Shown one piece after another: positions 1-10,673 of a stretch of DNA of 11,867 nucleotides (positions are counted from its first letter, which is position 1; each line of letters starts with the position of its first letter). Under the pieces are notes generated by a model. It had not been told where the DNA came from and ran no database searches. It saw nothing but the letters and a program-made list of their open reading frames with translations. A program made the translations under genes and the position numbers. The stretch comes from Nitrososphaerales archaeon TH526 (GTDB lineage: Archaea > Thermoproteota > Nitrososphaeria > Nitrososphaerales > Nitrososphaeraceae). The stretch lies in assembly GCA_014523665.1 (NCBI GenBank), contig JAATVR010000148.1, positions 1-11,867 on the forward strand, in the 5' to 3' direction.

Positions 1-1227
1 AATAGGATTAGCTTTGAGCAGGTTATCAACAGCTATTTGAAAGGGCGCAATCCTGGGATGCCATCGTTCTGTGATCGCAAGATTTGGATTATTGGGATCA
101 TCAAAGCCATGTAGCCAAGCAAGATCCAGATGTCCTATGAACCCTAAAGGACCTCTCGGATGAGCTAGAAGCCTTTTCGGTAACGCGGCAACAAAGTCCT
201 CTTTAGCATTTAACTTGGTTTCCCCTCCAAGCCGCCAGTGGGTAAAATCGCTTTCAGCAGGAGTACCATAACCAAAGCATGCAAATTGAAAAAAGATAGA
301 TCCGTCAAGAAAGGGTTCATCATACGAAATATCGTCAGCCTTTATCAGCTTTAGTGGTTGGTTTCTGTCAAATTGGCAGCATATAGCTCCATTTACGCGC
401 TTCTGTACTCCAAGATCTTCATCAGGTGCTGCTAATCCATGACTTGCAGTGTAAACTAGAGCTGTTTTGGATCCTCGGAGTAAATGCAAAAAGTTTTCCT
501 TTGTTGCATCATTGCCAATGATAACATCTGTTTTGAATCCGCATTGTTTATAGACATGATCAATAAGGGGCTTAACCATGTAATGGCAGCTGAAGTAGGT
601 AGGATCATTTGGCTTTGGACCTCTATCCGGAGCAAAGAACACTGTCTTACGCCCAATATCTGGCGATGGGACATTCTCTAGTCTAATAATCTTTTCAATG
701 TAAACTCTTAGATCTTCTAGAGTGTCAAAGTCTACTCTTCCCACATAGGCCGCACAGGTCAAGAGAGACTGAAATTTAAATGGAATTCGATCTGGACTGC
801 CCACAATAAGGATATAACGCGGAGGTTTCTTCATCTGTAGTGAAAGCGAGGTATAGTTGTCTTCTATCCACTCAGACCATTCTTCATCCGAGAATTCCTT
901 ATTGTTAAACATCATTGGGTATTTAGGATCCTTCATGCCACGACGTTTGGCAAGAGGCTCAAGTATTTCGATTATCTCTGACATACGAGGGTCATTCTCA
1001 TCTACAAGAAAAGTCCATCCAGCTTCTATAGGATCTCCCAGATCTAATCGTGGACGTTGAATCTCGCGAAAAGTAGTTGCAGTAGCGCCAGCTAATGCTA
1101 GCCTACGAATTTCTTCAGAATTGTGAAATAGTGAAAATTGGACCTTTTTCGCGAAAGATTGCTCATCTATTGGCTCAAATAGAAGGTCGCCGGTTGAATA
1201 ATTAATTCCATTAGCAAATATATTCAT
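1..1227 (-). CDS. Caspase/gingipain-like (clan CD, C25-like) cysteine peptidase, C-terminus cut off by the window edge
   Basis: The frame reads leftward from ATG at 1227 and stays open for 409 codons to base 1. A clan CD fold is suggested by a beta-strand segment ending in IVGSPDRIPF (about 139-150), then AYVGRVDF (160-167), a His motif YTASHGL with His263, and a Cys motif FFQFACFGYGTP with Cys317. His-Gly followed by a hydrophobic strand ending in Ala-Cys is the catalytic dyad pattern of gingipains, caspases and legumains. The later HPRGPLGFIGHLDLAW stretch (356-371) matches, from memory, a bacterial family of stand-alone caspase-like peptidases found in conflict systems. The first 130 or so residues show no recognised domain. 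No signal peptide or membrane segment is visible, so it is probably cytosolic. It diverges from the 98-aa gene and lies beside a CHAT-peptidase operon. A TATA-like box 27 bases upstream favours this start and a leaderless mRNA. Substrate unknown. Confidence 0.87.
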   Translation of the reverse strand, partial: MNIFANGINYSTGDLLFEPIDEQSFAKKVQFSLFHNSEEIRRLALAGATATTFREIQRPRLDLGDPIEAGWTFLVDENDPRMSEIIEILEPLAKRRGMKDPKYPMMFNNKEFSDEEWSEWIEDNYTSLSLQMKKPPRYILIVGSPDRIPFKFQSLLTCAAYVGRVDFDTLEDLRVYIEKIIRLENVPSPDIGRKTVFFAPDRGPKPNDPTYFSCHYMVKPLIDHVYKQCGFKTDVIIGNDATKENFLHLLRGSKTALVYTASHGLAAPDEDLGVQKRVNGAICCQFDRNQPLKLIKADDISYDEPFLDGSIFFQFACFGYGTPAESDFTHWRLGGETKLNAKEDFVAALPKRLLAHPRGPLGFIGHLDLAWLHGFDDPNNPNLAITERWHPRIAPFQIAVDNLLKANPI

Positions 1228-1573
1228 TAGCTTTGATAAATAAAGAATTACTTAAATATGCTCTCCTTATTTTATAATGTAGTCCTGCTCAGAAGGAGAA
1301 AGAAATACAATTAATAAATATACATATAAGTCTCAGTACTATCAGGGATTTTTATTCTGATGAGAATACTAGTGGAATATAATCCTGTGATTTATTAGGT
1401 TAACTAATTTTTCAATCATATTTTCATACGTACTTCATTCTTTCTGATAGCTGCACTGAGCAGATAATGAGAACGGCTAATTCCAACATGCAGTAGTGTA
1501 AACATATGGTCTAGCTCAAAACAATCAAGCAATAGTAGACCTATTATTCCCTGAAGGTATAAATCCTAACGGT
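1228..1573. other. Divergent intergenic spacer
   Basis: This AT-rich stretch separates the leftward peptidase gene from the rightward 98-aa gene. Apart from the minus-strand TATA-like box I see only a loose inverted repeat, TCTCCTT with AAGGAGA about 24 bases apart (near 1261-1300), and a small CTGC/GCAG hairpin near 1451-1463. A nine-codon frame begins at ATG 1467 and stops at TAG 1494. From 1502 the frame of the downstream gene is already open, which is treated with that gene. Confidence 0.5.
1251..1257 (-). promoter_or_regulatory. TATA-like box of the caspase-like peptidase gene
   Basis: Read on the minus strand the box is ATTTAAG. Its centre is about 27 bases before the A of the ATG at 1227, the spacing expected for an archaeal promoter whose transcript begins at or next to the start codon. 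No Shine-Dalgarno sequence lies close to that ATG. Confidence 0.5.
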
Positions 1574-1870
1574 ATGGCAGCTACTCTCAGTTACCTCGAC
1601 GTGTCTCAATCGTTTGGAGTTTTTGATAAATGGACCGAGGGGAATTGCCAAGATGGATCAAAAGCTCGTATATTGAAAGATCCTGCAGATGCGTTTGAAC
1701 TGTACGCTAAAGAATGGAGTACAAAATTTAATATCGTGGTGGATTTACTGAACCAGGTTAGAGTAGAAGGCGATAGTGAAGTAAATAGTAAAATTGTGAA
1801 GTTGTTTGATAAATTGAACTACGTTAACGCGGCGTTAAGAGAAATGTACAAGAGCGCTTACTTAGGCTAA
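1574..1870 (+). CDS. 98-aa protein of unknown family, predicted helical
   Basis: I do not recognise this protein. It is hydrophilic, has no signal peptide or membrane segment, and from about residue 37 onward reads as amphipathic helix (for example KIVKLFDKLNYVNAALREMY). The chosen start is the only ATG near the beginning, but it has neither a ribosome binding site nor a well-placed TATA box. The same frame is open and protein-like for 24 codons upstream (1502-1573, including AIVDLLFPEGINPNG) with no ATG, GTG or TTG, so the original start may have been lost. An ATG at 1506 lies in another frame and would join this one if a single base were restored. It sits between the caspase-like peptidase gene and the end of the CHAT operon and faces the latter, so it could be an adaptor or regulator of the system. 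That is an inference from position only. Confidence 0.55.
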   Translation: MAATLSYLDVSQSFGVFDKWTEGNCQDGSKARILKDPADAFELYAKEWSTKFNIVVDLLNQVRVEGDSEVNSKIVKLFDKLNYVNAALREMYKSAYLG

Positions 1871-2004
1871 TTGCTGCTATTAGCCTATCATTGATAAGTC
1901 TTAAAATAATTATTGAGAATAAAGGTACCAAAGATTTAGATGCTCTTGACAACGAGATAATAAAACTTATAGATAAAATAACTAGCATGATTATACTCCG
2001 TTAA
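1828..2004 (+). pseudogene. Open, coding-like frame downstream of the 98-aa gene, with no normal start
   Basis: This frame overlaps the end of the 98-aa gene in another register, runs past its stop and ends at TAA 2002-2004. It contains a hydrophobic segment (LIAAISLSLISLKIII) followed by a charged helix-like stretch (KDLDALDNEIIKLIDKI). The only standard start is TTG at 1891, which would remove most of the hydrophobic part. The simplest reading is that the 98-aa gene once continued into this frame and a single-base indel near 1855-1870 now ends it early. A separate small membrane peptide or chance openness remain possible. The 66 bases between 2005 and the end of the CHAT gene at 2071 hold nothing I can name. 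Confidence 0.3.
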
Positions 2005-2070
2005 TACTTGGAGAAAGTATCATAACCGCATTTCAAATTCAGATGAGATCCGTACAGAGACCTATTGTGA

Positions 2071-5000
2071 TTAATGAAGAGTACCTGTAACGTAAAAAGC
2101 TGCCCAGTACATTTCATCTTGAAATGGGCGAGTATCCGCGTCCTCTCGAGCAAGCCACCGCCCATGCTGTATCTCCAGTATTTCATTCGAATCTGTAGCT
2201 TCTTCAAGCCACATATCAAGCCTTTCAGTAATATATTTTACAGTAACCTCTTTACGCATCCATTGCTGAGCAGCTGCTAATGCTTCAGGAACTGATCGCG
2301 AACCTTTATTCCAAAGCCTGAAGAATTTTTCTAAAAGCAAACAGGTAGGCAAATCATCAACACGCCATAGCGTGGCAATGACAGCATTAGCACCAGCTAC
2401 AATGAATCCTCCTGGTAGACCCAAAAAGTCATTTAGCACATCATAAGCTTGTACTTGTCCAGTCTCACATGCTGATAGTATTATAAACTTACTTTTTATG
2501 GAACCAATACTGTTAAGAATGTTTCCTAAAGATAGGATTTCAGCCTTCTTGCTTTCTGATGAACAAATAATGCCGGAACGAAAGGGCTCCAGTGTATCAT
2601 AGAAACCATGTCCACTAAAATGAAATATATGACAATCCATTAGTAAATCACGCACATGCTTGACAGTAGATTTGTCTCCTGAAACTATATTGATAGAGCG
2701 ATCAAAGCTCTTAGCAATTTCATGAGCTTCAATAATAGTAAACGGCAAGTACATATCTGCAGTAGGATTTACTGCCTGTCCAAGATCTGCATAGTGGTAA
2801 TTCACTGAATTATGCTCTAAGACTTGTTGAAGCAATCCAATACTTGGAGCATAAGTTACATTGAACAGTTCATCTATTTGAGATCCATCTGATAGTCTTG
2901 CTGCATGCAGAGGCAAAACATTGAAGCCACTGGAGGGCATCAAAATAAGATTATTGATATCAGTAGGTATAAGGTTAATAATTGAGGGCCAAACCGACTT
3001 TCCTAGCGATGAGCATACACGTGTAATTGCCTGGTTCCATAGTGTGTTTGATCTTTCAACCATTGAACCAACAATCCATCCAATTTTTTCTGGATTGATT
3101 CTATCGAGCATTCCGTTCTTTAAGGCGAAGACTGTGGCGTCTCGGTCACCAAAAATCAAGCGATCTAAATCTGATCCTGTGAAAGTATTGTATATCTTTG
3201 CTGCATTCCACGACTTGCCCACTCTATCTCTACCAATACACACTATCCCCAATCCTTTCGAGTATACATCTATCAACACAGCAACATGGTTTAATGGGAT
3301 AGATTGAGCCAATTCATTCCACGACGGAAATTTGAACTCAGGCAGCTTATCAAACTCCTCATTGCTTACAGCTTGCAATTTGGCTAGGGCTTTAGTAAAT
3401 TCTGATTCAGCCTTATCTATTTCATGGTCAAAAATGGTATCTCCTAAAACAAGTCTAGACCGCCTCCGAGCCTGCAGCTCTGATCGTCGATCAGCAGCTC
3501 GCTCGTATTGCAACCACGTTTCTTCGTCGACAGTATCTGGTCTCTGGGTTCGTCTCTGGATTAATGTATACAAGAAGCGAGCTTTATTGCACTCTATTAA
3601 TTCCGTGGCAAATCCTCCATCCGAAGCAAGTATTGATGCTTCAGTTGCTAAATGATATGCATAGGCTTTATTAGCAGACCATTTTCTTTGCTCCATTGGA
3701 GTTTTGAGCAGATGACGTATGGACTCGAGATCTACAATGGCGTTACGAAAATTGCTCCTAGCTTGTTCCCAATTTCCTTGCAGAGCAGCAACTTGTCCTT
3801 CCAAAAAGGACATATTCCAATTTGGTCTTAGTCCATGCTCTCTAACTATAGTTTGCGCCTTATTGAGAGAAGATATAGATAGTTGCATCTCATTTAATGC
3901 TATGTAAGCTTGAGTAAGGTTCTGAATATCGACAAGTTGTTCATTCCACTGCTTTAGTTTTTCGTGTAGTACCGAGGCGCGTTCATGATATTCTATTGCA
4001 CGACCGGGTTTTCCAAGGAAAGTATACATGACACCTGCAGAATCTAAGCATGCCGCTTCAACCTCTTGCTTATTTACTGTCTGAGATATATCAGCACATT
4101 CTAAGTAAGTAGATAAGGCCTGTTCGAATCGCTTCTCTGTTTGAGTAATATTGCCAAGTGAAAATAATGCGTAAACTTCTGATTGAATATTGCCTCTGGT
4201 ACGACTTTGCTCTCTAACATATGATAGTGTTCTTTTGGCTCCTTCTAAATCACCCATCTCTTTTAGAACGTTACCAAAATTTGTCAATAGTGAAAGTTCT
4301 TCTTGCTGCAAACGAAGTTTTCGAGCTTGATCAACTCCATCCTCTAATACTTGTACTGCTTGATTTAGCTTGTTCCATTCTAATAAAGCAACCCCTAGGC
4401 GATCAGCAGCGGCTACTCTTACCTCATTTATTCCTAGGGTAGCTGCAATTGAATATGCTTCATGAAGTAATGAGATCTCTTCAGATCGACGTAATATCTT
4501 TTTCTTGGCATTAGCTAAACCCAAAAGGCACAGTACATGGTTCGGACTATCATTGTTTAACTTCGTCGAAGCAATAAGATTTTCATATAGTGTAATCGCC
4601 TCATCTATCCGTTCGACTTCTACAAGTACGTCTGCCAAAATGCGTTTCAATTCTATACGGTCTACAAGATGATTTGCTTCTTCGAGAAGCTTTACAGCAT
4701 CATCATATAGTCCAAAAGAATATTTAACTTGTCCCATGTATCCAAGCCCTATGGCTAATTTTTCTGGATCATCTAATTGTCGGGCTAATTTGAGAGCTCG
4801 TTCGGCGTAATACTCGCAGATTACTGGATCTCTCAATTTTTTTCCTGCCAGCCAACTGTAAGCATCATAGAGGTTATCTTTATCCTTCGTCTTTTCAAAT
4901 AATGAAGCTGCTAGATTCATTTGTTCTATTGCATCCTCTATGCGTCCTGCAGAGTATAAAGTTCGAGCAAAATTTGAACGAGACCAACCTTCATGGTCAT

Positions 5001-6585
5001 ACTGTTTTTTATCTGCGTCGAGGATCTTGAATGCATGTTCGAAAAGTTTTATTGAATTATCATATTGTCCTTGTGTGCCTAAGAATAATGCTCGATTGAA
5101 TAGAGTATCCATATCTGTAGAATTTTCATCAAATTTTACTTCATCATATCGTCCAAGCTTCATGTAGCACACGGATAGATTATAACGTGTTGTGTCTAGT
5201 TCTTTCAAGTCGCCCATTGACTTTTGTTTCTCTGCAAGCGGTTCAAAAATGGCAACAGCTTCGTCCCAATGCCCCATATTCATTAGAGCAAAGCCTACAT
5301 TGTTAGCAGCAATTGTAGCAAGTTTAATATCACCACCATTATCTGCCATTTCCTTAGCTAAACTAGCCATTTTCAAAGATTCATCATTTCGTCTAAGTGA
5401 TGCAAGAACAAGTGCTGCTTCATTGAGCAGACGAGCACGTTCAGTGTAATGAGTACTATCAGAAAGACATTTATCTCCTTCAAGAAGAAAGAGAAGTTTA
5501 GATTCTTCATTTCTCAAAGATAAGGCAAGTAAATAGTAAAACCTCGCTTTGAGTACAGGGTCCGTTGTACTTATTGTACATAGCTCCAATAGTATAGATA
5601 GAGTATCATTTGTGAGTACTTTGTCTTGAATCGCAAATAAACTCAAACATACAAGATCGTCATCATCGACCTGCAATACTTTCACAATTTGTTTGGCGGC
5701 TTCATGAGTGGTTTCTCCTACTGCTACCATTTTAGCCAACTTCAAAAACCCGCCGGGACCATTCTGAGAAGCATTACTTGACTCAAACACTGGAGTAATT
5801 TGTTCAAGCCTAGTCTGAACCTCAGTCCAACCTAGGTCTCCTGCAAATTTTTTCATGCCTTCTACAATTTCATTCTTTTGAGCATGTTTTACTTCTTTCT
5901 TCTGCATTTTAGTTGCTCGCCATGCAGTAAGAATGGGATCTAATTCAGCATAATTTATTTTGCGAAGAGATACTACATCAGGTATAATCTGTTTAGATTG
6001 ATGCGATTTCATAGCTTTTAATTTCTCTGCTTTCTCTGGATTATAGAGAGAAAATATATACATAGCTTCATCTACTAGCCCAAGGCTCAATGCACTGCTG
6101 GCGGCATTTGCTAGTTGTTGTTCTGTATTACTGATTAACATTCTTGCTTCATCTGAAGCACTACTGAAATATCCTTTCAAAAACTGTACTGCTGTACTGA
6201 GGTAGTCGATCGCCTTGTGTCTTTCATTAAATCCATTATACCAGACCTCTGCCAAATTGAATAAAGCAAGTATCCGTAAATCTTCCTTGCCACCATGTTC
6301 AGCAAGATCTACACAACGCCGAGCCATACTAAGTGCACGATCTATTTGGCCAATTTCAAGATAATATGGAGTAAAATTAAGGTAAAGCATTAACTCCCAT
6401 TTTCGTAGTTTCATTCGACGTATAAGCGCAAGTGCTTCTTCGAATGTTTCTTTGGTTTTTTCGTCATTCTTTAGCAGTAAAGCATAACTTAATTGCATTC
6501 TTCCTTTAGCTTCCTCCATTTTGTTACCATTCGTTATAGCTTTCTCAATATTCTTGTGGATCTGCTCTATATCTTCAATCTTCAA
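2071..6585 (-). CDS. TPR-CHAT protein: long TPR array with a C-terminal CHAT cysteine peptidase
   Basis: This 1504-residue protein is almost entirely helical repeat followed by a clan CD peptidase. TPR-type repeats fill about 25-185 and about 380-1030, as in NVGFALMNMGHWDEAVAIFE near 429. Between them, about 190-345 is less regular and may be a separate hinge or sensor. The CHAT domain spans about 1087-1500. It contains FHFSGHGFYD with catalytic His1326, IILSACETG with catalytic Cys1373, the family motif GLPGGFIVAGANAVIATLW, and a terminal YWAAFYVTG. Both catalytic residues are present, so the peptidase is probably active. Known relatives include separase-like CHAT proteins and the TPR-CHAT subunit of type III-E CRISPR effectors (Csx29), where the repeats hold the protease inactive until triggered. 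No Cas gene is visible here. The ATG overlaps the stop of the TPR gene before it by four bases, which implies translational coupling. Its trigger and substrate are unknown. Confidence 0.93.
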   Translation of the reverse strand: MKIEDIEQIHKNIEKAITNGNKMEEAKGRMQLSYALLLKNDEKTKETFEEALALIRRMKLRKWELMLYLNFTPYYLEIGQIDRALSMARRCVDLAEHGGKEDLRILALFNLAEVWYNGFNERHKAIDYLSTAVQFLKGYFSSASDEARMLISNTEQQLANAASSALSLGLVDEAMYIFSLYNPEKAEKLKAMKSHQSKQIIPDVVSLRKINYAELDPILTAWRATKMQKKEVKHAQKNEIVEGMKKFAGDLGWTEVQTRLEQITPVFESSNASQNGPGGFLKLAKMVAVGETTHEAAKQIVKVLQVDDDDLVCLSLFAIQDKVLTNDTLSILLELCTISTTDPVLKARFYYLLALSLRNEESKLLFLLEGDKCLSDSTHYTERARLLNEAALVLASLRRNDESLKMASLAKEMADNGGDIKLATIAANNVGFALMNMGHWDEAVAIFEPLAEKQKSMGDLKELDTTRYNLSVCYMKLGRYDEVKFDENSTDMDTLFNRALFLGTQGQYDNSIKLFEHAFKILDADKKQYDHEGWSRSNFARTLYSAGRIEDAIEQMNLAASLFEKTKDKDNLYDAYSWLAGKKLRDPVICEYYAERALKLARQLDDPEKLAIGLGYMGQVKYSFGLYDDAVKLLEEANHLVDRIELKRILADVLVEVERIDEAITLYENLIASTKLNNDSPNHVLCLLGLANAKKKILRRSEEISLLHEAYSIAATLGINEVRVAAADRLGVALLEWNKLNQAVQVLEDGVDQARKLRLQQEELSLLTNFGNVLKEMGDLEGAKRTLSYVREQSRTRGNIQSEVYALFSLGNITQTEKRFEQALSTYLECADISQTVNKQEVEAACLDSAGVMYTFLGKPGRAIEYHERASVLHEKLKQWNEQLVDIQNLTQAYIALNEMQLSISSLNKAQTIVREHGLRPNWNMSFLEGQVAALQGNWEQARSNFRNAIVDLESIRHLLKTPMEQRKWSANKAYAYHLATEASILASDGGFATELIECNKARFLYTLIQRRTQRPDTVDEETWLQYERAADRRSELQARRRSRLVLGDTIFDHEIDKAESEFTKALAKLQAVSNEEFDKLPEFKFPSWNELAQSIPLNHVAVLIDVYSKGLGIVCIGRDRVGKSWNAAKIYNTFTGSDLDRLIFGDRDATVFALKNGMLDRINPEKIGWIVGSMVERSNTLWNQAITRVCSSLGKSVWPSIINLIPTDINNLILMPSSGFNVLPLHAARLSDGSQIDELFNVTYAPSIGLLQQVLEHNSVNYHYADLGQAVNPTADMYLPFTIIEAHEIAKSFDRSINIVSGDKSTVKHVRDLLMDCHIFHFSGHGFYDTLEPFRSGIICSSESKKAEILSLGNILNSIGSIKSKFIILSACETGQVQAYDVLNDFLGLPGGFIVAGANAVIATLWRVDDLPTCLLLEKFFRLWNKGSRSVPEALAAAQQWMRKEVTVKYITERLDMWLEEATDSNEILEIQHGRWLAREDADTRPFQDEMYWAAFYVTGTLH

Positions 6586-8066
6586 TCCTCAACCTTTTCT
6601 CCTTTCTCGTATAGTCTGACTTGTGTCTGTTTCAACTTTGAACGCCGATTTTCTAAATTGGTCACTATTTCATAATTTCCCAAATCTCTGTATATTTGAA
6701 TAGCCTTTTCGAGTGATGTCAGGGAAGCATGCGAGTCATTTAGAATATCATTTAGCTCAGTAATTCTTAGATATAGGTCTGCAACTGAACCCTTATTCTC
6801 ATCATTGTCAAGATTAAGGTAATTTATAGCTGCAGTGTAAGCTTCTAGAGCTTCCTTGAGTTGTCCTTCGTCCCTTAATTGGGAACCCCACTTTGTATAG
6901 AACACTGACTTGTTTCTAGTCCAAGTATCACATAATATCTGATTATTTGGGCATGTTGATAGAGCTTGATCTAACAAATGGATGGCTTCTTGGTAACGTC
7001 CTTGTGTTGTCAGCAATAAGGCACAATTGGCTGTCGATACAGAAATTTGATCTGCTATTTTGGTCTGAATTGCAGCATTCATTCCTTCCTTGAAGCAAAT
7101 CTCTGCACTGGCATGTTCGTTTCTATCAAAAAAGATTTGACCTAAATTTGCATTCCAACGACTCAGATTCAGAAAGTCATTGTATTTTCTGCAAAGGATA
7201 ATGGCCTGCTGATAAGTTTCTATTGCACGATGAGTGTTTCCAAGACGCCTAAATGCTACTGCTTTATCCCCAAGTATACCACATAACTGTCTTTCATCTT
7301 CTTTTATAGTTAAAAGGTGTTCTGCTTCTATATACCACTCAAGCGCCTGTAATGTATATCCAGATTCTAGTAACTCAGAAGCTTTGTCCGCAACTAATAA
7401 TGAATTTTGATTGAACATTGGAGTATCTCCTAGCATATTGCGAAGTTCATCAAGAAGGCCTGTGTAATACATTTTAGAAAATTGTGTCAGAAGTATTCTG
7501 GCTAATGTAAAATCTCCTTCGATAGCAGTAAAGTAGATAAGGCTATTTGCTACACTTATTAGGCGCTTTGTATAGACGGTCTCATTCATTGCAAAAGATA
7601 CATAAATCTGTATTGCTACATTGATTAATTCTAATGCTTGAGCTATTTCTCCAGACTTATACAGCAGCTGAGACTGTATGGTGATAAAATACGCCCATAC
7701 ACCTTTGTGACCTATCTTTTCTCCTAACCTGATGCCAGACACAACATTCTGTTCAGAATAACTAGTGGGAGAACTAGCAATGCGGTCATGACAATGGAAA
7801 GCTTCCAGAGCATCCAATCGTTCAGGCTTATCTTTTATATAACGCCCTACTGCTTCATAAGAACTCTCAGATGCCATGCCTTGTCCAATATAGTCCTGAA
7901 GCAGATCATAAACTGCAGAGGCTTCCTCATATGAAGTATCCCCATAAGGGCGAGAGCCTCCAACTGACCAAACTATATCATTAAATGCTTCGTCATCACC
8001 TGAGGCAATATAGCGAAGCAGCCAATAAGGCCAAGCAAATAAAGTTTTATCAGTCTTTTGACTCAT
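6582..8066 (-). CDS. TPR-repeat protein, probable partner of the TPR-CHAT peptidase
   Basis: The 494-residue product has a non-repeat N-terminal part (1-115) rich in aromatic and acidic residues. TPR-type helical pairs follow at roughly 121-154, 223-254, 263-296, 303-336, 343-376, 389-420 and 430-463. Clear examples are AVAFRRLGNTHRAIETYQQA and ALLLTTQGRYQEAIHLLDQA. The C-terminus (470-494) is highly charged. No catalytic motif, signal peptide or membrane segment is seen, so it is probably a cytosolic scaffold or sensor. Its start overlaps the stop of the 94-aa gene by four bases (ATGA), and its stop overlaps the start of the TPR-CHAT gene in the same way, so the three proteins are probably made together. 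It may be the adaptor that joins the TPR-CHAT protein to its trigger or to the small membrane protein. The TPR assignment is firm and the role is inferred. Confidence 0.88.
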   Translation of the reverse strand: MSQKTDKTLFAWPYWLLRYIASGDDEAFNDIVWSVGGSRPYGDTSYEEASAVYDLLQDYIGQGMASESSYEAVGRYIKDKPERLDALEAFHCHDRIASSPTSYSEQNVVSGIRLGEKIGHKGVWAYFITIQSQLLYKSGEIAQALELINVAIQIYVSFAMNETVYTKRLISVANSLIYFTAIEGDFTLARILLTQFSKMYYTGLLDELRNMLGDTPMFNQNSLLVADKASELLESGYTLQALEWYIEAEHLLTIKEDERQLCGILGDKAVAFRRLGNTHRAIETYQQAIILCRKYNDFLNLSRWNANLGQIFFDRNEHASAEICFKEGMNAAIQTKIADQISVSTANCALLLTTQGRYQEAIHLLDQALSTCPNNQILCDTWTRNKSVFYTKWGSQLRDEGQLKEALEAYTAAINYLNLDNDENKGSVADLYLRITELNDILNDSHASLTSLEKAIQIYRDLGNYEIVTNLENRRSKLKQTQVRLYEKGEKVED

Positions 8067-8347
8067 ATACGAACACCTTGAAACTTGATTTGAAATATGT
8101 GACGATCGCTTATCTTTTTTTTAATCTTTGAATTGAATTGACACAATGCAGTATTCTTGAAAAGCTTTTCGATTATTCTGTTAACTACTATCTCGGTAAC
8201 TATAGCAAAAGAGATTACAGGAAATAAACCCGCTAGGGCAAATGTTGTCACTATCCTGCCTTTGATATCTTTTTTCTTATACTTTGCTGTATTGCTTTTA
8301 TTTCTATTTATTTGAGCGGCGAATATTCTGTTTAAGTATTCATTCAT
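8063..8347 (-). CDS. Small single-pass membrane protein, first gene of the TPR-CHAT operon
   Basis: This 94-residue protein has one strong hydrophobic segment at about 32-57 (IVTTFALAGLFPVISFAIV and onward). It is flanked by a very basic stretch KYKKKDIKGR before it and another basic cluster KIKKK at about 75-79. Basic residues on both sides leave the topology ambiguous. There is no cleavable signal peptide pattern, because the hydrophobic segment begins after 30 residues. I do not recognise a family. ATG at 8347 is the only plausible start, and a TATA-like box lies just upstream. Its stop overlaps the start of the 494-aa TPR gene by four bases. As leading gene of the operon it could anchor the TPR proteins at the membrane, be cleaved by CHAT, or act as the membrane-damaging effector. 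The sequence does not distinguish these. Confidence 0.72.
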   Translation of the reverse strand: MNEYLNRIFAAQINRNKSNTAKYKKKDIKGRIVTTFALAGLFPVISFAIVTEIVVNRIIEKLFKNTALCQFNSKIKKKISDRHIFQIKFQGVRI

Positions 8348-8592: not shown

Positions 8593-8865
8593 ACAAGGAT
8601 TGAAGCTATAGACAAATCGATTGATAAGCTGTCTAAAAGGATTGAGAGAGTTGATCCTTCTGTTTCCTGCTACAATGGTAGTGGTACAAGGTATTGGAAA
8701 GGCAAAAAGATAATCCCATTGGAGAAGTGGGGGAAATTGCTTTTGCAAATGCAGATGCAGGTGGCTGTAGACTCATGCAAACTGAGGAAGCTCTCGAGTA
8801 TTTTCCTGATGACTATTCAGCAAGCGTTCAAATGCAATTCCAAAACAGGTTTGAAGAGAATGTAA
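8593..8865 (+). pseudogene. Coding-like 5' part of a probably frameshifted gene
   Basis: This frame opens after TAA at 8590 and reads a strongly helical, coiled-coil-like start (IEAIDKSIDKLSKRIERVD), then a less natural sequence to TAA at 8863. It has no ATG, GTG or TTG near its beginning. The second half overlaps the frame at 8682-9050, which looks more like protein from about 8690 onward. The best explanation is one ancestral protein whose N-terminal helix is here and whose remainder is in the other frame, split by an indel near 8670-8690. I do not recognise the family. Confidence 0.3.
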
Positions 8866-9050
8866 ACAAGTGGTACTCTGATTACATAGAGTTAATGGAA
8901 TATACAAAAAATCCTAATTATGGTAACCGAAAATGCTTTGATTGTTTGTTAAGTGGTGGTAGAGAGGACCCAATATTCATACGAATTGATAGATTGATTA
9001 CCAAAGGATTAGAAATACAACAGCAGGATATACCTAATAGTAACCCATAA
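8694..9050 (+). CDS. Hypothetical protein, probably the 3' part of a frameshifted gene
   Basis: The frame is open from 8682 and ends at TAA 9048-9050. The only start that covers all of it is TTG at 8694, giving 118 residues. The first ATG is at 8775 and gives 91 residues. The product is soluble and acidic in its middle, with helix-like EALEYFPDDYSASVQMQFQN and EENVNKWYSDYIELMEYTKN segments and a CFDC pair (Cys82 and Cys85 from the TTG) that could bind metal but has no partner pair. No family is recognised. The weak start and the helical open frame immediately upstream in another register suggest that this is the tail of a broken gene. A genuine short gene starting at 8775 cannot be excluded. 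Confidence 0.4.
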   Translation: MERQKDNPIGEVGEIAFANADAGGCRLMQTEEALEYFPDDYSASVQMQFQNRFEENVNKWYSDYIELMEYTKNPNYGNRKCFDCLLSGGREDPIFIRIDRLITKGLEIQQQDIPNSNP

Positions 9051-9569: not shown

Positions 9570-10673
9570 ATGGAGAATTCCTTTTGTTCACCCGGGAATC
9601 AGGAACCCACTGATAGCCGTTTAGCCATACAGGGCGATAATCAACGCACTACCCCTCACGCGCAATACTTCCCCAAAAATGTTGGAATAGTATTTTTGGT
9701 GGATAAGGATCTAAAATATCACTTTGAAAAGATTTATTGTTCTCATCTACTACTTCAGATTAATAATTGTCAACAATTGTTTAATTTTAAAATCATGGAT
9801 CTTGAAAAAGGTAAATTAAAAGATGTAAAATTGCCCGAATCTCTGAAGGAATGGGATAAAAAACTCTATTTAAAATTTTATGATGTCGTAACCGGAATTC
9901 GAAATGCAAAAGATAGGAACGGTAATAATGCAACTGCAAATTGGAACATAGACTACTGGTTGGGATTAACTAACCTGACTATCAAAGACACCAGGAACAG
10001 AGAAAAGAGTGAGACCAGAGAAAAGAGTGAGAACAGAGAAAAGAGTGAGAACAGAAAGGATAAACTCTGGGAGCGTGCGTACTATCTGGTTTGGGGAGGG
10101 AGTGATTTGCCGGTGGAAGTATGGCAGAACGGCAGAAATGAGATTATGGGGGCAGTCACATCTAATTGGTGGGAAAAAAGGAATTCTCCCCCCTCTGTTT
10201 TTGAATATTTCGCCATCGCCAGTTTCATGTGTTGTCTTCATTTTCTTAGTCGCGAATATCAGGGTAATTTAGAAGGGCATTCAACAAGCGGATGCATTTT
10301 CGATCATACTCTGGATACAACGTTTTTGCGAATATCGATGTCAAATCCATTTGTTTGCAATCCATGCAAATCGAAATTGAAAAATCTACAACAGATTATT
10401 AATAATAGACATCCTGGTAATACGATCTCCTTGGAGAAAGATGTTGAAACAATCCTTTCTAAAAAGTGGATGGGTAGTCTTGAAGAAATAAACTCTCCCA
10501 TTTATAATCTGAAAAAAAATTATAGGTATGACATAGATAAGAAGAGTGGTTATAACAAGGGTTGGATCAAGTCATTTTTAGACAATGTCAAGGATAAAGC
10601 CGCCGAATGGACGCTCGGGAATGTGGTGGGTGGAATAATTGGAGGTTTAATAGTACTACTTTTGAAGCAGTAG
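9570..10673 (+). CDS. C-terminally anchored membrane protein with a His/Cys (zinc-like) motif, unknown family
   Basis: The 367-residue product is mainly soluble and ends in a glycine-rich hydrophobic segment (about 349-365, NVVGGIIGGLIVLLLKQ), so the bulk is probably cytoplasmic with a tail anchor. Residues 38-75 look like an alpha/beta core. Residues 142-162 contain three hexapeptide repeats (NREKSE type) from an 18-bp tandem repeat. Residues 206-270 carry the most distinctive part: PPSVFEYFAIASF, then HSTSGCIFDH and PFVCNPC, placing His237, Cys242, Cys263 and Cys266 in a pattern that could bind zinc. From memory, GC-[IL]-FD followed by IC-x-x-C occurs in uncharacterised proteins of defence-rich loci, but I cannot name the family. 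The ATG is chosen because the frame is continuous from it and a TATA-like box lies about 29 bases upstream. It faces away from the TPR-CHAT operon, and a link to that system is inferred from proximity. Confidence 0.8.
   Translation: MENSFCSPGNQEPTDSRLAIQGDNQRTTPHAQYFPKNVGIVFLVDKDLKYHFEKIYCSHLLLQINNCQQLFNFKIMDLEKGKLKDVKLPESLKEWDKKLYLKFYDVVTGIRNAKDRNGNNATANWNIDYWLGLTNLTIKDTRNREKSETREKSENREKSENRKDKLWERAYYLVWGGSDLPVEVWQNGRNEIMGAVTSNWWEKRNSPPSVFEYFAIASFMCCLHFLSREYQGNLEGHSTSGCIFDHTLDTTFLRISMSNPFVCNPCKSKLKNLQQIINNRHPGNTISLEKDVETILSKKWMGSLEEINSPIYNLKKNYRYDIDKKSGYNKGWIKSFLDNVKDKAAEWTLGNVVGGIIGGLIVLLLKQ
9996..10057 (+). repeat. 18-bp tandem repeat, three full copies and a partial fourth, inside the 367-aa gene
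   Basis: The unit AACAGAGAAAAGAGTGAG occurs at 9996-10013, with one change (ACCAGAG...) at 10014-10031, again exactly at 10032-10049, and partially at 10050-10057. Because 18 is a multiple of three, copy-number change keeps the frame and only adds or removes a charged hexapeptide (N/T-R-E-K-S-E). Confidence 0.95.

Follow-up and report, generated by a model that had tools for sequence, protein, structure and literature searches.

Relation to described systems

CHAT peptidases have been described in systems that act through proteolysis. In SAVED-CHAT (type III-B), immunity is exerted through a proteolytic cascade that is fed by the CHAT peptidase, which is a precedent for CHAT at the head of a cascade (PMC11229360). 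In the type III-E CRISPR system known as CASP or Craspase (Cas7-11 and Csx29), the CHAT peptidase is fused to TPRs. Here, we analyze an 11,867-bp stretch of DNA from Nitrososphaerales archaeon TH526 (contig JAATVR010000148.1), hereafter the window, which encodes a TPR-CHAT peptidase together with a small membrane protein, a TPR protein, and a second, C25-like peptidase. We read this locus, with a probability of about 0.5, as a horizontally acquired, gated proteolytic signaling module that has no CRISPR parts beside it.

The window shares its TPR-fused CHAT peptidase with Craspase, and when the TPR-CHAT protein was compared with PDB sequences, the matches included Csx29 (residues 1326–1419, E ~4e-4). 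However, no Cas7-11 was found among the eight open reading frames (ORFs) of the window, to which the search for cas genes was confined, and the window holds no CRISPR array. The module further differs from Craspase by its second, C25-type peptidase, a far longer TPR part, and an archaeal host. As for SAVED-CHAT, no SAVED match was found in the window proteins by Pfam and PADLOC scans, and the second peptidase of the window is C25-like, unlike in that cascade, where a caspase-like second step was reportedly described by Steens and colleagues in 2024. In EACC1 systems, the gene for a single-transmembrane (TM) protein precedes one of the caspase superfamily (PMC7159879). The 94-residue protein of the window has one TM stretch, as determined by hydropathy scan, and no Pfam match in a library that possibly lacks EACC1. 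CATRA is expanded as "Caspase and TPR repeat-associated" in a figure legend of 2025 (PMC12657218); in comparison with both EACC1 and CATRA, the peptidases of the window are CHAT and C25. In archaea, caspase-like activity has been reported for Haloferax volcanii (PMC3615174). Among the literature matches listed, no title or abstract opening mentions a C25–CHAT pair, and none, by title or abstract, concerns two cooperating clan CD peptidases in ammonia-oxidizing archaea.

Two clan CD peptidases in an archaeal locus

The window is the entire contig C816 of a 4.9-Mb genome in 833 contigs. Read 5' to 3', its minus strand encodes a 94-residue single-pass membrane protein (8063..8347), a TPR solenoid protein of 494 residues (6582..8066), and a TPR-CHAT peptidase of 1,504 residues (2071..6585), followed after 843 bp (1228..2070) by a C25-like, gingipain-fold cysteine peptidase whose first 409 residues (1..1227) run off the contig. 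The first three genes overlap by 4 nt at both junctions, i.e., they form a coupled operon headed by the membrane protein. A preliminary description had proposed that this is an archaeal locus with such an operon and with two different clan CD peptidases, a C25/caspase-like one with His263/Cys317 and a TPR-CHAT one with His1326/Cys1373, all of which is borne out by the results below.

The TPR-CHAT protein is a clear member of the CHAT family, since it matches Pfam CHAT (PF12770) with 122 bits against a cut-off of 24, in addition to many TPRs. Its CHAT moiety spans residues 1191–1501, and the H1326/C1373 dyad is invariant in all seven aligned TPR-CHAT proteins, including the Lokiarchaeal one. 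The TPR protein encoded upstream is predicted to be a helical solenoid (pLDDT 91). Close relatives of both proteins are few, at least seven others for TPR (E ≤ 1e-20) and at least five others for TPR-CHAT (E ≤ 1e-60), in searches that scored only ~8,000 candidates each. In two relatives, sequences corresponding to the TPR and TPR-CHAT proteins occur in one polypeptide. The first, P0132 (1,807 residues), lacks the initial portion of the TPR protein and has an N-terminal counterpart of its residues 192–478 (51% identity over 287), then continues as TPR-CHAT, while the second, P0126 (805 residues), joins a whole TPR protein to the beginning of TPR-CHAT, approximately 300 residues with 33% identity. 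This fusion makes it very likely that the TPR and TPR-CHAT genes encode one functional unit.

The assignment of the truncated protein to C25 (clan CD) is based on its relatives, fold, and catalytic residues. While its own match to Pfam C25 is weak (15.1 bits vs. a cut-off of 23), P0001, a full-length relative with 58% identity, matches PF01364 above the cut-off, and the protein has a gingipain fold with the catalytic His and Cys. H263 and C317 are invariant in 20 of 20 alignment rows, and both residues are also present in the distant C25 relatives that cover the site, with the exception of one locus (L023). In structural alignments, gingipains (MEROPS C25) and the window protein are 12–15% identical. 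Unlike in gingipains, a hydropathy scan of the window part of this protein shows nothing resembling a TM stretch. The exception is a homologue in a genome of the same order (G375, L023:9595-10998), in which Arg and Ser replace the His and Cys, and whose gene adjoins LodA-like and FAD-dependent genes, the latter presumably LodB-like. Judging from these replacements and neighbors, it is probably catalytically dead and part of a different partnership.

The last 65 residues of the C25-like protein were found by C25 profile search at 3061-3258 (minus strand) of contig C14, i.e., 2 bases from the end of this 3,260-bp contig. Since the C-terminal piece lies at its very end, C14 most likely adjoins the left end of the window and continues it. 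An end-overlap check found no sequence shared by the contig ends. A PNPOx gene on C14 has relatives that are 69–74% identical in three of four same-genus genomes, which ties the locus to its archaeal host. The genome also encodes an archaeal AmoA, as do 16 of the 21 genomes covered by that search (the host included), which identifies the host, by its gene content, as an ammonia-oxidizing archaeon.

Distribution of the C25-like gene

The C25-like gene is scattered. In the taxonomic family of the host, it is found in 1 of 70 genomes, compared with 9 of 70 for CHAT, and the TPR protein in 1 of 61 relatives, the host being counted each time. A sample of the phylum contains the C25-like gene in 2 of 398 genomes, one of them with both catalytic residues replaced. 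Beyond the phylum, it was detected in 1 of 227 genomes of the phylum of a Lokiarchaeote and in 12 of 396 of the phylum of Aminicenantes, which we take to be Acidobacteriota. Distant relatives occur in seven plasmid records, and none was confirmed in viral contigs. The C25-like gene is thus a rare acquisition in the host lineage and not an archaeal family, and its scattered distribution suggests that the gene set was acquired horizontally.

C25-like and CHAT genes are found close together

The preliminary description had called for a comparison of co-occurrence within 10 kb, and its expectation stands for C25 and CHAT, mostly on the evidence of C25 relatives of ~30% identity. A CHAT gene lies within 10 kb of the C25 gene in 12 of 18 genomic loci, where 0.96 would be expected (chance of 12 or more, ~5e-13) if CHAT genes were evenly spread in each genome, clustering being left uncorrected. 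The 18 loci comprise 16 from the bacterial phylum, the Lokiarchaeal L004, and L023; the window was left out, and a single locus was scored for two C25 ORFs that share one contig (G846:C676). CHAT genes were found with a profile of our own, whose seeds include L004, L030, and L062, and ten proteins, plus L004, L030, and further ones, were confirmed in Pfam. One of the 12 positives, L056, is an 89-residue CHAT fragment detected by our profile only. On plasmids, an annotated CHAT lies within ~6.4 kb in all three loci examined, out of seven records matched. Both Nostoc plasmid loci also have nSTAND1 and WD40, while the Sinorhizobium locus has an AAA match below the cut-off.

The two genes are often adjacent. 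In 10 of 21 loci (18 genomic and three plasmid), the CHAT ORF is on the same strand within 400 bp of C25 or fused to it. In the Lokiarchaeote, a C25 gene whose product is 58% identical to that of the window is followed after 12 bp by a gene for an 880-residue TPR-CHAT protein, and a bacterial locus (L057) has a single open frame of 1,626 residues with TPR, CHAT, and C25. In addition, the longest contig is 58,747 bp for both P0133, a TPR-CHAT relative, and P0049, a C25 relative, which suggests that they lie on one contig. The C25–CHAT pairing is non-random. At two loci, L048 and L050, a CHAT-SIR2-like fusion stands beside nSTAND1 proteins, near C25-like genes, and L050 matches PADLOC ThsA models.

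A bacterial layout with a sigma factor

In four of the 16 bacterial loci (L053, L055, L059, and L060, from three genomes), genes for an extracytoplasmic function (ECF) sigma factor, a single-pass membrane protein, a TPR-CHAT protein, and a C25-like protein follow each other in this order, with a C14 caspase gene downstream or, in L060, upstream of the sigma gene. In these clusters, the single-pass protein occupies the same slot as the 94-residue protein of the window, upstream of the TPR/TPR-CHAT pair. The layout, with its partly anti-sigma-like membrane protein, recalls the Csx30/CASP-sigma part of type III-E systems (PMC10028731). This shared slot points to what would be the simplest common theme, in which a protease cuts its partner and thereby frees a regulator. 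A fifth cluster, L061, has TPR-CHAT, C25, and C14, and no sigma gene was found in it; three clan CD families (CHAT, C25, and C14) are therefore close together in five bacterial clusters.

A proposed gated proteolytic module and its alternatives

In the module that we favor, TPR and TPR-CHAT would form one unit. Its TPR solenoids would keep the CHAT peptidase in check and, upon sensing a trigger, set it free. The activated CHAT would then cut the 94-residue membrane protein, a candidate substrate or anchor, or the C25-like peptidase, or both, these being its likeliest targets. As the second protease of the relay, C25 would widen the response, the output being a stress, immune, or cell-death response. 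We infer the gating, substrates, protease order, and output; a function in immunity or cell death, as put forward in the preliminary description, is plausible. The C25/CHAT neighbors in another archaeon and in bacteria suggest a protease relay, which would signal danger or stress. If so, two cooperating clan CD peptidases would be placed in an ammonia-oxidizing archaeon, and CRISPR-free TPR-CHAT proteases would be linked to the sigma/anti-sigma logic of type III-E CRISPR, making the role of a caspase-like relay in a sigma-less cell testable.

Several observations weigh against the relay. The 843-bp gap between TPR-CHAT and C25, which contains a 98-residue ORF of no known family on the opposite strand (1574..1870, plus strand) with coding-like codon use, speaks against their co-transcription. 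CHAT is out of reach in six of the 18 genomic loci: three G846 contigs (two of 3,976 and 5,265 bp, and one with a C25 pair at the contig end), L023, L058, and L005. L005 (50% identity) is a close relative, the only other named one being the Lokiarchaeal L004. The CHAT partners are not orthologues of the window protein either, the Lokiarchaeal TPR-CHAT being 22% identical and the bacterial ones 21–34% over pieces of 116–298 residues, and BLAST found no match of the 94-residue protein within related loci. Of the four bacterial membrane proteins in the sigma layout, only two match the zinc finger zf-HC2, a marker of anti-sigma factors, one above and one below the cut-off. Archaea are not known to use sigma factors.

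A broader version of the relay is tentative. C25–CHAT pairs might be an undescribed, widespread prokaryotic protease-relay system, with a bacterial form comprising an ECF sigma factor, an anti-sigma membrane protein, and a caspase, which would have moved into Lokiarchaeota and ammonia-oxidizing archaea. Since there is no sigma factor to release in archaea, the small membrane protein would there be the direct output of an archaeal caspase-like cascade.

It seems unlikely that the locus is instead strictly an antiviral or cell-death system, in which a viral trigger leads to broad proteolysis or to release of the membrane protein and the cell is killed or arrested. The CHAT, caspase, nSTAND1-WD40, and SIR2 partners near C25 relatives are the usual parts of conflict systems, the sporadic distribution and seven plasmid records are consistent with it, and immunity through a proteolytic cascade has its precedent in SAVED-CHAT (PMC11229360). 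However, apart from a TPR match and a weak one to BovA, PADLOC returned nothing for the eight window ORFs, no relative was confirmed in viral contigs, and the presence of an ECF sigma factor with an anti-sigma-like protein in the bacterial layout hints at control of transcription.

We find it improbable that the TPR-CHAT operon and the C25-like gene are functionally unrelated and merely share a patch of acquired genes. The gap with its opposite ORF does leave room for a separate, putative promoter, no CHAT was found at L005, and the low identity of the Lokiarchaeal TPR-CHAT indicates that the pair did not travel as one inherited unit, but the association in genomes and plasmids, the adjacency, and the fusion all argue for a connection. 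Finally, misbinning of a bacterial contig, which would make the finding non-archaeal, is very improbable: the bin (96.6% complete) has 5.26% contamination, one of the two named relatives is from a Lokiarchaeote and the other from a bacterium, and a second, 96%-identical copy of the PNPOx gene (C14:1-315 and C99:2590-2901), possibly a recent duplication, makes strain mixing possible, but the missing C-terminus ends at base 3258 of 3260 of C14, whose PNPOx has same-genus relatives, and the window, with a GC content of 38%, shows tetranucleotide correlations of 0.44–0.75 to nine readable contigs of the host, which on their own are weak evidence since L004 and L023 reach 0.58 and 0.57.

Neighboring genes

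Two divergent ORFs to which no family was assigned lie upstream of the operon on the plus strand. The first encodes 118 residues (8694..9050), and the second encodes 367 residues (9570..10673), contains an 18-bp tandem repeat at 9995-10055, and ends in a hydrophobic C-terminal tail. On C14, ~1 kb past the end of the C25-like gene, there is a gene for a 255-residue protein of no family found, with five hydrophobic stretches (L009:1236-2003, plus strand), which may be a membrane effector or unrelated. An 86-residue piece of a short-chain dehydrogenase (L009:647-907, minus strand) is a possible gene remnant beside the acquired locus.
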